Assembly (NCBI GenBank): GCA_903813345.2 | Contig: CAIIXF020000009.1 | Span: forward strand, 6,320,030 to 6,384,029 | Length of the DNA: 64,000 bases | Source of the DNA: Owenia fusiformis | Lineage: Eukaryota > Annelida > Polychaeta > Sabellida > Oweniidae | Direction of reading: 5' to 3' | Part shown: piece after piece, positions 1 through 9,400 of the stretch | How positions within the stretch are numbered: the first letter of the stretch is position 1 | Layout of the letters: each line of letters starts with the position of its first letter | The notes under the pieces: generated by a model | What the model was told of the DNA's origin: nothing | The model's input: the letters and a program-made list of their open reading frames with translations, nothing else | Databases searched by the model: none | Translations under genes and position numbers: made by a program

Positions 1-1500
1 GAGAAAACACAGACAATCAGGGTCTGTTTGATAGTTAAAAAAGGGAAAGAGCATCCACTTAATCAATAAAAAATTCGAGAAAATAAATATGGGAATATTT
101 GAGAGAACATGAAAATCCGCCCACGGCCAAGGAAACAAAACTGGACATGAATATTCTAAAATGTTTCCACGATTTACAAGTGAACCAGATGACCAATATT
201 GGTATGGGATAAACATATTATCCTATAGTCGGTTCAGGATATTGGGATTATCCCTTGGCCAATATATAGGGGTTATGCAATTGGAGTTTTTGGATACAGG
301 GAATATCCCGAGGGGTTTACAATATATCTTCCCGAGGGACCAAGGGAAGATATATTATATATCCCTCGGGATATTCCCTGTATCCAAAACCTCCAAGTGC
401 ATAACTGTTGTATATAGTTAAGCATGATATGTACTTCTTTCTGTAACTGGAATACGATTCTAATATACAAGCAGCACATACGTATTCCCGGGGAACCATA
501 AATATTTTGTGTAGGGTGTGGACATTTTTCTTTTCATTTCTCTAAAATCAGATTATTCTCATAAAATTCATACAAAGATGGGCCTAAGCCTTTATTTTCG
601 TATTCTGCATGTTAAGATATTTATAATGTAAAACCTAAGAGATAAATGCAATGTCTTCAGTTGAGAATAAGTATAAGGTAAATGTGTGAATTCTGCTTGT
701 TGTTGCACTATTTTTATAATAAACAAGGTTCGATACGCAACACTGAATAGACTGCAGTCATAGCTTAGTTGTAAAGAAAACAAAAGAAGTTGGGACGTGG
801 TCATGCTTGAATACGATTTTGAATATATCGCCGTTTACATTTGTTGAAATCGGCCTGTATTAATTTCAACAGGTGATCGGTGTACAAGGGCATATATTTG
901 AGTTATTGGTTTAACGATAAGTATGACCTATGAGTGGGTAATGTTTTACAAATGCATGAAACAAATACTCCAATGGCCTAATCTCAATTTTCCTGCATAA
1001 ACTATTACATTGAAATGATGGTCATTTGCTCTCTAACTTCCGCACCGCATACGTAACTTCGTAACAATTCAATAAGCCAAGACAGGACCGCTATAATCGC
1101 TACATGCCAGTGAATGTTAGTAACCCCCCCCCCTTCCCATTTCCATAGAGAAAATGAGCAATGGTTAAAACTGAAAACAAATTCAATATCCATGAACAAA
1201 TGCAGGTTCTTCAAGCTTTTGATTGCGAGGGAGAAATAGTCAAATAATCCTCTAGTGAAAGATTGTTTTCAAGTTGAGTTTGTAAGTGTTATAAAATAAA
1301 AATTTTGGAGAGGTTCCAATTTTTCCCTTGCAGTAAAAACCTTAAAGACGTTTCAATATATGCAAACCTCACTGTTCAAAACAAAAAATATATATATTAC
1401 TGTTTTATCACACCTGGATGAAATAGATTGTTTGCAGTTGCAATTGTTCCATAAACTGTAAAAGTGGTCATAGAGTATTTACAGTTAAGGTTCATTGGTT
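1..1500. other. Intronic/intergenic DNA, no gene seen
   Basis: AT-rich sequence left of the IMPACT-fusion ORF. If ASPSCR1 continues beyond the window, as its open exon 9 implies, this lies in its intron. Apart from the palindromic repeat at 200-412 I see no coding exon, RNA gene or long repeat. The short open frames here have no recognisable domain. I searched the minus strand for the rest of the ASPSCR1 UBX domain and did not find it. Confidence 0.5.
200..412. repeat. Palindromic interspersed repeat with GGGATTATCCC core
   Basis: Two arms of about 40 bp are near-perfect reverse complements. Arm 1 is about 275-312 (TTGGATACAGGGAATATCCC) and arm 2 about 366-408 (GGGATATTCCCTGTATCCAA), separated by about 55 bp. 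The left part (about 226-262) carries TTCAGGATATTGGGATTATC, which recurs at 52865-53085. This is an interspersed inverted-repeat family rather than a gene. Confidence 0.7.
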
Positions 1501-1522: not shown

Positions 1523-2779
1523 CTATGTATCTCCTATTTTGTCTTTGATAAGTTTGGAGACTAGCTTCCACTTTTCGGGATCATATCGGCCATTGTCCCA
1601 TCGAGATATTATGATCATTGTGTCAGAAAGATCCAGTTCGACGATTGTATTCCTAATAGTGCGTCCCATGCCAGAGTCTCCATCATCCTGAAAGTCATAG
1701 TATTTCCTGGCTCCATTTTGGATAACAAATGCGAAGCTGTTATTTGTAGCTTTGGCAACATAAGGATCGGAGCATGTTTTAAGGAGTGCAGGTTTCACGT
1801 CAGTAAGCTTTTTCACTTTCGCCAGATGCACTTGATACGATCCTCCAGTGCCTGATATCACCGGGCCATTTTTAAGATTGATATCGAGTGCGTCCTGAAC
1901 TGTATCTGAGTTAGATATGGGAGTTTTCAGGGGATACACCAGTTTCCCATTCACCGTCATTTTTTCTTTTGAGATGTTACATTTAGCCTCGGGGTTTTCT
2001 TGTAGAATCTGCTTCTTTGTTTCGTACATAAATCGCTGTTTTTCAATTTGTGGCTTAGGATGTTGTTCTGTTATGAACTTTCCTGTGCCTTTTAGGCGCC
2101 ATGCATTAGCTAATACGATTTCCTTACCCTTGTAAGGGTTAAACTTAGCCACAATACTTCTCGGATAGAGGTCGTGTTTCTGCGGTCCGATCCTGTGTAC
2201 TCTATCAATGGCTATCTCATCTTCAATTTTTAGATCGTTTTTTAAGAATTCATTAAGTATTCTTCTTGTATCAGCTGCTGTTTCATTCTTAATTTCAGGA
2301 ATTTTAAAGAATAACAAATTGTCCCGCATAGATCGGTCTTTCAGGTTCATAACTTCTTCTTTAGTATCTGCTAACTCTTTTTCTGATCTTTCGGCTCTTC
2401 TTTCTGCGAACATAAGTCTCTCCCTTAAATCCTTGTTATCTAATTTAAGTGATGTAATATCAGCCTCCTGGGATTGCATAGTTTCTCTTAGAATATTCAG
2501 TTCTTTTGTGTGACTTGACTTCATGTTTTGTATCTCAGTTTTCATTTTTGAGAGTTCAATAAATAGATTAGAATTTGAGGCATCAGCCAGTTTTTCGGAA
2601 CTTGGGAAGGTTTCTGTAGTTTCAGGTTCTAGCGTCTCTTGGTTTGACATTGTGGGTAAATTTTTAGTCTGTTTCTTGGTCTTTTTTGTTTCAGGTAATT
2701 TGAGAGGTTCCTCAGTTGATAATGTTTTTGATCTCAGTCTCTTTTTGTCAGATTTGCTTTTGTTTGAACCTGATGGCAT
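1523..2779 (-). CDS. LINE ORF1-like protein with C-terminal IMPACT/UPF0029-like domain (418 aa)
   Basis: Intronless 418-residue ORF. Residues 1-70 are basic and Ser/Glu rich. Residues about 72-148 form a heptad-rich coiled coil. Residues about 149-225 begin RSMRDNLLFFKIPE and include IDRVHRIG, the signature of the L1 ORF1p-type RRM. Residues about 226-285 resemble the ORF1p C-terminal domain (LKGTGKF, then KMTVNGKLVYP). Residues about 305-415 match the IMPACT/UPF0029 pattern: AKATNNSFAF, DDGDSGMGR at 365-373, and SRWDNGRYDPEKW at 392-404, corresponding to the family's A-x-H-x-x-x-A, DDGE-x-x-G and SRWYGG blocks. No reverse transcriptase lies beside it. It is on the same strand as ASPSCR1 and inside its last visible intron. 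It could be a non-autonomous retroelement ORF or a domesticated gene. The RRM/ORF1 call is firm; the IMPACT call rests on motifs. Confidence 0.75.
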   Translation of the reverse strand: MPSGSNKSKSDKKRLRSKTLSTEEPLKLPETKKTKKQTKNLPTMSNQETLEPETTETFPSSEKLADASNSNLFIELSKMKTEIQNMKSSHTKELNILRETMQSQEADITSLKLDNKDLRERLMFAERRAERSEKELADTKEEVMNLKDRSMRDNLLFFKIPEIKNETAADTRRILNEFLKNDLKIEDEIAIDRVHRIGPQKHDLYPRSIVAKFNPYKGKEIVLANAWRLKGTGKFITEQHPKPQIEKQRFMYETKKQILQENPEAKCNISKEKMTVNGKLVYPLKTPISNSDTVQDALDINLKNGPVISGTGGSYQVHLAKVKKLTDVKPALLKTCSDPYVAKATNNSFAFVIQNGARKYYDFQDDGDSGMGRTIRNTIVELDLSDTMIIISRWDNGRYDPEKWKLVSKLIKDKIGDT

Positions 2780-3261
2780 TATAAGTGTATTTCATCTAGG
2801 TCCAGTGATAAGTTTTCTCAATGTTTACAAATCAATGTACTACCTGTATCAATATGTAGTAGTATTAGTCATTTTGACCTGCTGAGAGTTTTATGGTATT
2901 AGTACATATTAGCTACACGTGCATATAAATATTTTTACAGTGTGAACTCTTTGTCAGAAAATGTTCAAACTATTTCTCCAAATATCTCAGTGATGAGGTA
3001 ACCTTTTTGGTCAGCGATTAATCCATCCCATTCCTGGTCACTTTACACTTATTTAAGCATATATTTAAATTCCTAAATATCCATCTGTAGCAGATAGAGC
3101 GAGATTATTTGAGAGCTACATTTTTGTATTCCATGTGGTAACTGTCTAACACCTTATGTTGAAATGGTTGATGACGTAGTTTATCCCTCCTCTAAGCAAT
3201 GTCACATAATGTCACATATTTTTGTTTTCTGTTGGACACTGAAACATGATAACATTAACCC
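2780..3261. other. Intronic DNA, nothing recognised
   Basis: Sequence between the IMPACT-fusion ORF and the duplicated ASPSCR1 exon end. I looked on the minus strand for further UBX exons and saw none. No repeat with clear ends. Confidence 0.4.
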
Positions 3262-3443
3262 CTGACCTACCAGTTTCTCTTGGTCTAAATTTTCAAAGAA
3301 AAAAAAAATTCAAAATATGGGCCCACTTTTCGGTTTTGGGGGCCCAAAATTTCTGAAGTTTTTTTCTAATACCTGAAATTTGCCCCCCCCCCTTGTTGGT
3401 TCCCAGATCCGTCCTTGACCTACCAGTTTCTCTTGGTCTAAAT
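3262..3443. repeat. Insertion flanked by a 28-bp duplication of the ASPSCR1 exon 9 end and splice donor
   Basis: The sequence TGACCTACCAGTTTCTCTTG, continuing to a total of 28 bp, occurs at 3262-3289 and again at 3416-3443. On the minus strand this is the last coding bases of ASPSCR1 exon 9 plus its donor (CTG then GTAGGT). Between the copies is about 126 bp of low-complexity DNA with A and C homopolymers and a GGGCCCA pair. Transcription therefore meets two identical donors about 154 bp apart. It may be a target-site duplication of an insertion or a local tandem duplication. Confidence 0.7.
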
Positions 3444-6400
3444 AGACCCTGAAGCACCACTCTATCGGGAAACTGGATGCGAATCACAGCACGATTATAT
3501 TGTGACATCTTCTGCTCATTTTGTGCCTGCCGCATGGCTGCTGTCATCAAGGGAGCATCATCTTGAGAATGACTGAAATAAAAATTGAATGTCTGAATGC
3601 CATTACTGAACATCCAATATTTAGTGTCTTTTGTATACTACTGAATGCCTTTAAGTAACAGATATCATTAAATTTCTCTTAGGTGTCATGTGCGATCGTA
3701 CCCTCCTGACTATGCCCATGGATGTCCAAATGACCCAAGCCCTTAACTCATTGCTGACCAACCCCGAGATATCTCGTCTATGACGTCATAGTCGTATCTG
3801 AGCAACCCCGATATATCTCGGGGTGCTGTACAATAATTGTCACACAATTTGTACCAATAATCTTCCGAAATATTGTAGGGGTCACAAGGGGAATACCGTT
3901 GGGTGCAATTGAAATTGGCGCTACATCAATCTTTTGACATGCTCCCTAAGTAGAGGTGTTCAGATTAAAGAGGTATTTCTATTTGGATATCCAGATTTAA
4001 CTGTACATGTAAAGAACAAAGAGGCTTGTACTTACGCTTCCTTAGATAAATCCATCATCATCTTCCTGAGGTCAGACTCTGTGACTTGAAAGAAATCATC
4101 GGATAAATCTTCATCTAAAATCAAGCAATGCAATTGAAACTGTTATTACAATCTTCATTTATATCAGTGGCACATGTACAGTTAGATATTATCCATGATC
4201 ATTCTTGAGAATTCAAGTGCATTAGTGCAAGTGTGCCTACATATAGAACTAGGTCACTGGGTAGTTCAAGCAAGTGTGCCTACCTGTAACATTAGATTAC
4301 TGAGCAGCACAAGTACATGTGTACCTACTTATGGCTCTAGAATAGATTACAGGGCAGTACAAGACTACAAGTGCATGTGTACCTACCTATAGCTCTGGAT
4401 TACAGGACAGTACAAGACTACAAGTGCATGTGTACCTACCTATATTAACTGATTACTGGGCAGCTCAAGGGCATGTATACCTACCTATAGTTCTGGATTA
4501 CAGGGCAGTACAAGACTACAATTGCAAGTGCATGTGTACCTACCTATATGAACTGATTACTGGGCAGCACAAGTGCATGTGTACCTACCTGTAATGTTAG
4601 ATTGCTGTGCTGTTTTGTGCTCAATATTGTATACCATAATTTCTCTGTCACATGGCTTGAACTCCTTCCTGCTAACATCACTGGAAACATTGGAACAAAA
4701 TAGATTGCGTTATAATATGCTCTTTCCTGGAATTTAAATCATTTTAGATGTTAAGTGATGGATGGATAGCAGGGATCTCTCCAGTATTGAATAAGCTGGA
4801 TCCAACCAAATTATCCAACCAAATTATAGATGCACTCATTTGTATTGTATCTTCAAATAACATGGGCATGTATGAAAAAATGTTGTATGTATCTCCGATA
4901 CTAGACTACATGAACATGTACAAGACTCACTTAAGTCTGATTTATCTTAAATAACAGAATAGTGTTTTAACCCCCAAAATACGGTCCCTTTTTCAAAATT
5001 TAGTAAATAAAAATACTAAAGGTCTATAGAGCACTAGTTTGCTCTTGCATTTGTAATAATTTCAAGTTGAATGGATAAGCAGTTCAGGCACGTAGTCAGG
5101 GGGGGGGGGGGTTCGATGGGTTCGAGCGAACCCCCCTATGGCCAAAAAATCTTTCAAAATCATGCAGTTTTTCACCATTCCGAGCACTTTTTAAGTGATT
5201 TTGGCCATTTTTGGACAAAAATTGAACCCCCCCTGGAATTTTTCAAAAAGTGAACCCCCCTTGGGAAATCCTGGCTACGGGCCCGCAGATACAAGATTTA
5301 TGTGGCACCTGCCGCCAGCAAATGCATTGCACACCCATCAGCACAAGAGAATGGGAATATAGCGACTTTTCAAAGTGTGATAAAAATGTTTGACCCTATC
5401 CGTATATTGTAACGCTGTTGCTATAATATGTTTCTTACCTTAATTCATTTTTGTATAAAGACTTTCCTTTTGTAGATTCAGGAAACTATAAATAAAGAAG
5501 CCGAATAAATTCTGTGTCACAGTACCTTACAGAGGAATGGAGCGAACAAGTATTGTGCTTATTATCGCTCTGTCACCATCAAAATCTGAAAATGGGTCCT
5601 TCTACTGGTACATGTATTTTCAATTTATTTCTAACAATCCTCAATGACCTATGTAAGAAGATATCTTACATTAAAAGTAGTGTACTGATTTTATTTTCTC
5701 CTGTTTAAGTTTGAATTCGTGGCTTATGAGACCAGTGAAATAAACCTTACCTTAAATTCTGACACAACAGGTTGTTGAATTTGCCTGGGTCTTGCCCCAC
5801 TCTGATTTTGTGATAGCTGAGCCTGGAACATTCCACTCAGTTGTTGCACTGCCTATAATATACAACATAGTACAGTAAAACTTGAATATCAAATACCATT
5901 CTTGCATTTTGTAATTCAGAAGTATTTGATAGAACAAGGCATTAACATGCAAAATTTCACCACCTGCCATGTTGAACAATGAAAACCAACCACCGCACCA
6001 TCCACAAAAAAGTTGGAGACAATAATGATATGTCAGATCATCACTTCTGGTGATGACATAATAAAACCTTTTCACTGATATAAGTCACAGGTGACAAGGG
6101 TTCCATAGCATCAGGTGGAAAAAATTACACAAAATGATTTGCCCCCAGCCCCCTTCAAATGGAAGGCCTGATGTACCTGGCGTTGATTAGGTGTGAGCTC
6201 CTGAGTTACATCTACCTCCCCTGGTGGGAATATTTGTACACCCGTAATTCTTCCAGGGCCACTCGAAGACTCATTTCCAGTTGTTTCTTGTTTACTAGTT
6301 GCTTCACTAGATTGAGAATCCATATCTCCATTGTTCTCTTCTGGATTGGTAACATCACATTTTTGGGTTTGGGCACTATGCGGTTGATCTGTGGTATCCA

Positions 6401-9400
6401 TTGCTTCAACATTTACATGTGGTGTTTCATGTTTAGCATGTGGTTGCTCATTTCCAGTGTCCATTGGTTCAGTCTCATTTTGGGATTTTACAGATTCGCA
6501 TTCACTGGGAGATACAATCAGAGTTTTTGTAACTGCTTGAACTGTGTCTCTGGATACTGTATTCGAGTTCATTTTTTGTTGTCGAGCATTTTCTTTGTCT
6601 ATTTTGGCATTTATTTCAGCAATAGTTGCATCATCAACCTCTCTATGTATTAACCTGGAATAAAGTGAAGTGAAAATATATGTGCGGTGGTAAAGCATCC
6701 GACATGTAATTGGGAGGTTGTGGGTTTGATTCCCACCAAAGTGGAGTGACTTTTTCAAAACAGCCCTTAGCATAGGATTTGATCCATAATCTGATATACC
6801 GTAAACATATTACAGTTTTGTACAAGGGATAAGACATTGAATAGCCAATCCATTTATTTACTTAATTACCTTAAAATTGCACGTCCTCCTATAAGCCCAA
6901 GGCCCCTTAGAGTGGTGTTCTCCAAGGCATATACCCCTATGATCTCCTCCCTCATGTAAATACATACAGGATGTCGAGAACCACTTTCGCTAACTACAGA
7001 CACACCATCAGATGTCAGCACTTCCATCAGCGTACAACTTGGGTTAAATTCATTCTGAAGTCGTTCACCTGTCTCCAATTGGACAGCTAGTGTCACCTTT
7101 GTCTCTGTGCGAGATTTTGTCGCTTTAACCAACTCAAGTTTAGCGAGATTGGGTAGCCCTGAATAGCGGAATGTCATTGTGGTGTCCAACACTTTCTTTC
7201 CATGCCTACAATTGTAAAAATTAACATGGACATGTGCATATGAAGACCTCAGTTAACAAAAATAAACAAGGAATTAACATGCAAAATTTCACTACCTGCC
7301 ATTTGTTATATAGACTGAATGCTGACCACTGAACACCAACCAATGTCCACTATATAATAGTATATTCAGTGTATATGAATCACTTAATGAAGAAATTCTT
7401 CCTTTTTTGTATAATTACTCAGATGCGAGTAGGTAGTTACCAGTTTCGCCACCAGGTGGCTGATTCGGGGGAATTAACATGGCAGGGTATTACAAAATTC
7501 CCTTAAACTTGAATATGCATCAGGTTTGATGGTTAACTTTTCATATTACCTTTATGTATCTGATAGTTATACAATTTAAAATAGGTCCAGTAAAAGAAAA
7601 CATTATCTGCCCAACACAAGAAAAGATATTTCACTTTTTGTGGTTTTACAACATGGGCTCTATGGGGAATCTCCCCGACCTAGAAGTCACATTTTCAAAG
7701 AAAATTAGATTTTGAAAGTTGATAAACTCTTTTCAAAACCACATTTCTAGACGTAATTTTACATGTAGATTCCAAATATGACATCAGTTTGACTGAATTG
7801 TGAATTTCTAATGACGTAAATCAAGATTATTTCTACTCGCAACTGGGATATTGCATTTCATGTATGTAAATATGTATTTTGGCAATAAATTTAAAACAAA
7901 AAACAAAATAAAATGTCAAATTGCCAACCACCAAACACCATCTACAAAAAAAGATGGAGACCGTCACACTTCTATAGTGAGTGCAAAAAAAACCTCACGC
8001 CTCATGTTGGGAGGGTGACAATCTAACTAGGAACTACTGTAGTCACCATATATCATGTCACACCATGTATGTGATATGAAGTATGTGATAAATAAAGGGG
8101 GGGGGGGGGTAGTAGATAGGTTAAGAAAGTGATAAGATCATATGAAGTTCAGAATTTATTTGGGTTATTGTGGTTTACTCACTTACTTGAGTTCATAATC
8201 TTCAGCTGGAAGAAACTTCTGCTTTTGGCACACATCCTCCAATATCTAAATTTAATGCAAAAATATACAGTTATGCTTGGTATAAAAAGGTAAATAAATT
8301 GGAACATAACATAAAAATTGAAAGCGCTGCCTTATATGTTGTCTCGGTTACTTAACATTGTTGAAGTATTTTGGCTGTTGTGATTTGAGTTGGTCAAATA
8401 AGGGCAAGATGGTCATATATCAATCATGGATTAGTACATGGAAACCATAGTGAACACCATCCATTGATCTCTATTGATAGTTACCTGTCAGTCTCCTACA
8501 GTGCGGGTGCTGATACAAATTAATTGACAAGTCGTATAGTTGGCATATTTCTTGAATCTTAACATTTAATGTTCCAAACTCCCACAAACTGCAGAAAGGT
8601 ATACACTGTAAATCGTATTTTTTTACCAAAATGAGTGTCTCCAAGGCTTCATACCAGCGTATGCAATGTATTTGTCACGAGTTTGAGCTGAAATTTCACA
8701 AAAATGAAGTAAGGGTAATCTCCGCCAGGTTTGTTTATTGTGGTTAGCTTTTAATGGTAAGTGCTCAGAAGCAAATAATTCATGTGTGCAAATTAATCAA
8801 ATAATCTGATTGGTTTAAACTTTATCGCGTATTTGACAATGTGTACCATGTTATTTTCTAGTGAATTTGTTTCGTTTCAGGGAGTTTGTGTTTCAGTGTA
8901 ACTTCCGCAAAAATGGCGGACCAATGACAGAATTTACAGGTAAAATCACTTCGAAATTTAAAGATGCAGTATACCATAAGTTTCTCGCCAAGACAATCAA
9001 AGATGTCCCAAACGCCATATTGAAATTTGGCAGAAAAAACATTCACTCGACTAACAATTACAAGTCTTGGTCGAAAAGGAAGTACTTCAGCGCTCCAATA
9101 CACGCACGGAAGGATGGTGATGATGTATGACATAGTTAGAGAACAAAAGTAAGCCACTGATCGACGCTGATAAACTTAATTCGTGTTTCAAAGGTCACTA
9201 TTATTCAGCTGTCCATTTCCCCGTTTGAGAGTGAGTGAGTAAGATTGGACCATCACTGGTACAATCATCCAATGGAATTGGATACAATGAATTCAAATTC
9301 AAAAGCAAAATAAACACATATTTAACAATTCATTGTCGTAAATTTTGCAAAATGACAGAGTAAAAATACTTATTTCAAAACATTGAATGATTAGCCATTG

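Follow-up and report, generated by a model that had tools for sequence, protein, structure and literature searches.

The window analyzed here is a stretch of 64,000 nucleotides from the annelid Owenia fusiformis. Positions 1523-2779 hold an open reading frame of 418 codons that runs from ATG to stop with no internal stops. The uninterrupted 418-residue frame of the initial annotation is exact at these positions; it lies on the minus strand, which that annotation had not given, and the motifs it quoted are all present in the protein. The features of the locus, including parts of the surrounding mobile element and of an insertion into it, are as follows.

1523..2779, minus strand: likely ORF1 of a LINE (non-LTR retrotransposon), 418 aa, with coiled coil, RRM/CTD-like core and UPF0029 domain
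2336..2572, minus strand: coiled coil, residues 70-148 (single-sequence model with helix 64-157, pLDDT about 76-90)
2081..2335, minus strand: RRM-like part, residues 149-233, RSMRDNLLFFKIPE ... IDRVHRIG (borders approximate; moderate evidence)
1922..2080, minus strand: CTD-like part, residues 234-286 (borders approximate; same evidence as for the RRM-like part)
1535..1846, minus strand: UPF0029/IMPACT-family domain, residues 312-415 (Pfam match 315-396)
2780..3154, minus strand: 5' UTR of the element, its 5' end common to copies L006, L007 and L008
1113..1522, minus strand: first part of the spacer between ORF1 and ORF2, with homology to L006 as far as the insertion point
1113..1118, minus strand: AACATT, one of the two copies of the 6-bp target site duplicated by a nested insertion
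1..1112, minus strand: near end of the 8119-bp insertion (15-bp terminal inverted repeat at 1098-1112)

The coiled coil, which had also been annotated, agrees with the AlphaFold model of the single sequence, where residues 64-157 form a confident helix and the rest is unreliable. Modeled without an alignment, the UPF0029 domain and the whole protein reached mean pLDDT values of 43.5 and 43.0, respectively, and the prediction was poor outside the coiled coil. Coiled-coil proteins were also present among the PDB matches of a profile built from 16 ORF1 rows, and an NCBIfam scan of the window ORF1 gave no match. Elsewhere in the window, a 220-aa ORF was found on the minus strand at 6111-6773.

A UPF0029 domain behind a LINE-type ORF1 core

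That an IMPACT-family domain is joined to a LINE ORF1-type protein had been proposed before and is borne out by profile searches. The window ORF1 matched Pfam UPF0029 (PF01205) at residues 315-396 with E 4e-7 (30.4 bits, cut-off 27), which is the significant hit that the proposed HMM check had looked for. A phmmer search of the PDB returned Yih1, the yeast IMPACT homologue (6bqi), with E 1.3e-4 for residues 287-412, and with a profile of 16 related ORF1s, all from one genome, the Yih1 match over the C-terminal part improved to E 9.6e-15. When each of the 16 ORF1s was scanned alone, UPF0029 was detected at E<=0.001 in every one. Because these four comparisons agree, the fusion is, as judged from sequence, well beyond chance.

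UPF0029 is a conserved domain of both bacteria and eukaryotes (PMC7140605), and we compared the ORF1 domains with a representative of each. Identity was 25-32% with the IMPACT protein of the host and 13-20% with E. coli YigZ; all 14 aligned domains, some of them near-duplicates, were nearer to host IMPACT, after the near-duplicates L008, L014 and L020 had been dropped from the set. Bacterial YigZ is disfavored as the nearer source by this uniformly lower identity. A shorter DDG loop is common to the ORF1 domains and IMPACT. What the ORF1s share with IMPACT and Yih1 is the UPF0029 domain, whereas the RWD domain and the GG-x-LG loop set those proteins apart: an RWD domain was found in none of the 16 ORF1s at E<=0.001, the GG-x-LG loop of IMPACT and YigZ is not kept in the ORF1 domains, and the setting is that of a retroelement.

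The part between coiled coil and UPF0029 had been described as an L1-type RRM. A LINE-ORF1-type core with moderate likeness to L1 ORF1p holds up, but the likeness is not significant once the coiled coil is removed. The 16-row ORF1 profile matched LINE-1 ORF1p in the PDB (2ykp, E 2.7e-5; 2yko, E 3.7e-5) with a score that is partly due to the coiled coil, and the unrelated coiled-coil protein gp26 scored alike with the same profile (E 4.6e-5). The RRM and CTD part without the coiled coil gave E 0.24-0.49 with LINE-1 ORF1p, below matches to ISWI that cover a short motif only and look like chance. The suggested check against Transposase_22 (PF02994) was negative, both for the 16 ORF1s at E<=0.001 and for 14 core parts at E<=10, although matches above about 0.1 are mostly removed by the HMMER filters. 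The core part is evidently related to the ORF1s of LINEs without UPF0029, with an hhalign probability of 99.9 and E 3.6e-34. A profile of four such domain-less ORF1s had LINE-1 ORF1p as its best PDB match when the coiled coil was included (2ykp, E 3.3e-5), and it matched 2ldy only after the coiled coil, with E 0.011.

These comparisons suggest that the core is probably a type II-like ORF1 core composed of RRM and CTD, and they lend moderate support to LINE-1 ORF1p as its best solved relative. The likeness to type II (L1-type) ORF1p of LINEs lies in the coiled coil and in a core that appears nearest to LINE-1 ORF1p among solved structures. With the LINEs that carry type II ORF1s, including the Transposase_22-type elements of the CR1 and L2 lineages, the position of ORF1 upstream of an ORF2 for endonuclease and reverse transcriptase (RT) is also shared (PMC4120745). 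The C-terminal UPF0029 domain is an extra of the window-type ORF1s.

Genomic copies and the split window element

The searches covered a single eukaryotic genome, that of the window itself (498 Mb in 525 contigs). A protein search with the window ORF1 gave at least 80 matches, the best candidates being scored; among the matches listed, one full-length copy is 97% identical, and others fall at 79-82%, 60%, 52-53% and 37-43%. A search of the same genome with PF01205 gave 37 matches, all above the cut-off, which were cross-listed with 37 of the 80 rows of the window-ORF1 search. In 24 cases UPF0029 forms one continuous match with an ORF1 core, eight are C-terminal pieces of ORF1s like the window copy, one has the core part in an adjacent frame, and one belongs to the host's IMPACT gene, whose exons lie in L013. 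The three left over (L031-L033) match a profile of the 14 ORF1 domains with E values of 4.8e-28, 1.2e-9 and 1.1e-9. The fusion is present in several related families, one of which has near-identical copies. A scan of viral contigs with the ORF1 alignment gave 14 pattern matches, among which no relative was confirmed.

At locus L028 (5624-6664 and downstream), a 347-aa ORF1 was seen whose UPF0029 domain goes on in the +1 frame. Read by eye, the domain letters of L032 and L033 are nearly those of L028.

Seventeen loci with UPF0029-bearing ORF1s (L005-L012 and L014-L022) were fetched with their flanks and checked for a partner ORF2. Fifteen of them are followed, at a distance of 0.4-2.2 kb and on the same strand, by an endonuclease/RT frame, or 16 if the split window copy described below is counted; at L020, no such frame was found within about 5 kb. 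In L006, L007, L010, L011, L016, L018 and L021, ORF2 is open throughout as one frame of about 1030-1250 aa. It reaches 1145 aa in L022, where it is cut by the end of the locus, and is shortened or divided over two frames in L008, L009, L012, L014, L015, L017 and L019. The ORF2 of L006 matches the Pfam families RVT_1 (E 3.7e-34) and Exo_endo_phos (E 1.1e-8). We tentatively take these RTs to belong to the CR1/L2 lineage of the Jockey superfamily.

The L006 element measures 6.1 kb and has an (ATTGA)n tail. At least 34 of 47 match rows, some of which are pieces of one copy, end at 6080-6101 of the element, and their 5' starts vary. No target-site duplications were evident by eye in the flanks of L006 and L007. 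Because a 5'-truncated copy at C7:33369510-33373028 shows 100% (rounded) identity with L006 along 3.5 kb, the family moved recently.

Alignment of the L006 element with the window copy revealed why no RT is seen near the window ORF1. One part of the copy, C9:6321142-6323183, corresponds to element positions 9-2042 (96% identity), and a second part on the same strand, C9:6308931-6313022, corresponds to 2037-6089 (97%) and holds the ORF2 region, which was recognized by this DNA match. The two halves overlap by six element bases, AACATT. The 8119 bp between them begin with CACTGGCATGTAGCG and end with its reverse complement, giving 15-bp terminal inverted repeats, and extend from window positions 1-1112 on to C9:6313023. 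The terminal inverted repeats and the duplicated 6-bp target mark this stretch as a younger nested insertion. From L006, the start of the ORF2 frame is expected about 9 kb from the window ORF1 stop. The absence of RT sequence within the window is explained by the nested insertion and the window edge, which together cut off the ORF2 region. The statement that no reverse transcriptase is nearby was an edge effect, given the element's own ORF2 region at C9:6308931-6313022 and another RT frame at C9:6316747-6319530, about 0.5 kb outside the window edge.

Two simpler descriptions of the window copy were rejected. A 3' truncation is incompatible with the resumption of the element behind the 8119-bp insertion with a duplicated AACATT, and an orphan ORF1 is contradicted by the copy number, the downstream ORF2 frames and the map of the split element.

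A 928-aa RT frame (RVT_1, E 1.1e-40) lies between the insertion ends and is either the insertion's own or that of a further nested element. An inverted repeat was also noted around GGATACAGGGAATATCCCGAGGGATAT, at about window positions 260-400; by eye, the coding sequence at the start of the 928-aa RT frame seems to have similar letters.

Selection and history of the domain

Omega values were calculated by the Nei-Gojobori method for L006 versus L007, the ORF1 of the latter being 81-82% identical to the window ORF1. The core gave omega values of 0.032 (RRM-like part) and 0.056 (CTD-like part), UPF0029 one of 0.049, the coiled coil 0.124 and the N-terminus 0.222; these values are approximate because dS between the two is 1.1-2.0, with saturation in the linker. 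Comparisons of more distant ORF1s are mostly saturated, and near-identical pairs offer too few changes in UPF0029 to judge selection (synonymous/nonsynonymous 2/1 for window-L006, 3/2 for L007-L008, 1/3 for L010-L020 and 1/2 for L012-L014). Judged by the L006-L007 ratios, the UPF0029 domain is under purifying selection and about as constrained as the core (0.05 vs 0.03-0.06). Because it is kept about as strictly as the core, it probably does something useful for the LINE.

The RT tree separates two deep groups with 100/100 support, and both include elements with UPF0029-bearing ORF1s. Group A consists of L006, L007, L009, L010, L011, L015, L017, L018 and L019, and group B of L012, L016, L021 and L022. 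The domain is kept in ORF1s that are only 19-23% identical to the window ORF1, across both RT lineages. Relatives without the domain occur in group A as well: in L024 and L025, ORF1 stops after the core, and L037 has an ORF1 of another kind. A six-frame search with the profile of 14 ORF1 domains detected no UPF0029 at E<=1 in L024-L027, L029 and L034-L038; the same profile did find L028, L030-L033, L020, host IMPACT and YigZ.

Some of these relatives have features of their own. In L026, L027 and L029, the ORF1 that precedes an RT of a distinct group has a related core and lacks UPF0029; L026 also has a zf-RVT domain. The L037 ORF1 (3399-5282) is 628 aa long, and the RT of this element is 50% identical to that of L011. 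The C-terminal half of the L037 ORF1 had looked SGNH-esterase-like, but a Pfam scan of this ORF1 gave nothing at E<=0.001.

Mapped on the RT tree, the presence of the domain requires at least five changes (23 rows, with L005, L034, L036 and L038 left out and without L017, L022 and L030). L034, L036 and L038 were omitted since no ORF1 was found in 3.9-4.4 kb upstream, and L005 because its row represents the RT of the nested insertion. For the core part, an AU test did not reject one clade of all domain-bearing ORF1s, L028 being counted among them (p 0.44), and such a clade appears in the best core tree at 85/73 once the long rows L029 and L035 are left out. The position of L017 and L018 differs between the two proteins. 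Grouping them with lineage B is rejected by the RT data (p 0.011, with L017 only 40% filled), whereas the ORF1 tree places them with the lineage-B ORF1s at 100/100; a clade of lineage B alone was not rejected for ORF1 (p 0.357). This conflict is a hint, not proof, of ORF1 exchange. Overall, the trees fit one origin of the domain, after which ORF1s were lost, replaced or exchanged, as has been described for CR1 and L2 lineages (Metcalfe and Casane 2014, PMC4120745).

Possible functions of the domain

We consider it likely that the frame is ORF1 of a two-ORF, endonuclease-bearing LINE with an accessory domain under selection. L1 ORF1p trimerizes through its coiled coil and binds element RNA with RRM and CTD. 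By analogy, the protein studied here would trimerize through its coiled coil and may coat the element RNA via RRM and CTD, the RNA-binding parts of ORF1p (PMC4120745). The coating step is carried over from L1 ORF1p because the RRM and CTD part alone is not significantly similar to LINE-1 ORF1p. In the least certain part of the proposal, each trimer would display three UPF0029 domains, and the domain would be an accessory module of the RNP that was captured from a host IMPACT gene. This module could dock the particle on a host partner, a reading that we put forward tentatively. Docking is proposed rather than competition for GCN1 because the RWD domain is missing, and the translation machinery is favored as partner since IMPACT and Yih1 are found with ribosomes (PMC4503747). 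In Yih1, the stretch that suffices for binding ribosomes overlaps residues 68-132, which bind Cdc28, on the RWD/linker side rather than in the ancient domain (PMC4503747), so that ribosome docking carried over from IMPACT as such is disfavored.

The main rival to docking, which we regard as possible if somewhat doubtful, is that UPF0029 extends the core and gives ORF1p a second module for RNA binding or RNA chaperoning. Similarities have been noted between the YigZ fold and folds that bind nucleic acids, namely EF-G domain IV and the ribosomal S5 domain 2-like fold, and the domain's place directly behind the RRM/CTD-like core, with about the same constraint, would suit such a role. It would also suit the charge of the domain, which is +1 to +7 with a pI above 8 in 13 of 17 ORF1s, compared with -2 for the host IMPACT domain. 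This charge is modest for domains of 106-127 residues, however, and is -2 to 0 in the remaining four (L015, L016, L021 and L022); in nearly all ORF1s, UPF0029 is less basic than the RRM-like part, which carries +3 to +8 in 84-96 residues.

The initial annotation had raised the idea that ORF1p mimics IMPACT, binding GCN1 and damping GCN2 so that the element is spared translational shutdown. The homology of the domain to IMPACT speaks for this, as does the discussion of mouse LINE-1 ORF1p bodies alongside the integrated stress response (PMC10289378). Still, we judge it improbable: Gcn1 binding and Gcn2 inhibition sit in the RWD domain of Yih1, the very domain that the ORF1 scans did not detect. 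GCN2 evasion may occur, but the domain content does not speak for it. The Yih1 RWD alone, when overexpressed, inhibits growth under amino acid starvation, mutations in its helix H3 weaken Gcn1 binding, and the ancient (UPF0029) domain has no known function in Yih1/IMPACT (PMC7140605, PMC4503747). A host gene domesticated from a LINE ORF1, the other proposal made at the outset, would account for an ORF1 frame that stayed intact while the ORF2 region was split off by the insertion. It is very unlikely, as the window ORF1 is 97% identical to that of L006, whose ORF1 and ORF2 frames are both open, and as the fusion is multi-copy, with many relatives, near-identical copies and endonuclease/RT frames downstream; the rest of the window's own element lies about 8 kb away. 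We give equally little credence to a functionless passenger that was fused once and carried along. The functions proposed for the domain are predictions, which leaves room for this view, but an omega of about 0.05 between families and retention in highly divergent ORF1s of two RT lineages argue against it.

No paper on a UPF0029-bearing LINE ORF1 was found among the open-access PMC full texts, which do not include Repbase, and a term search inside PMC4120745, PMC11203168, PMC10294476 and PMC3905857 did not find the architecture. The first of these surveyed 448 Jockey-superfamily elements and lists PHD, RRM, CCHC, esterase and zinc finger/leucine zipper among the ORF1 domains; the words UPF0029, IMPACT and YigZ are absent from its main text. 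The esterase- and PHD-bearing ORF1s of CR1/L2 lineages described there (PMC4120745) set a precedent for domains added to or swapped into ORF1. They carry other domains, whereas here UPF0029 has been added after a type II-like core.

Among the parts of a LINE, the ORF1 protein is the one least understood, and its accessory domains, such as esterase and PHD, indicate host pathways used by the particles. A speculative extension of the docking proposal is that a captured IMPACT domain, whether ancestral or exchanged, may have become a fixture of the LINE particle in two deeply separated RT lineages, docking the RNP on a conserved partner in translation or stress signaling. A retroelement that keeps UPF0029 under strong selection provides an independent handle on the function of the domain. 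If the extension is true, this class of ORF1s with a captured IMPACT domain would offer a way into the function of UPF0029, in IMPACT as well.
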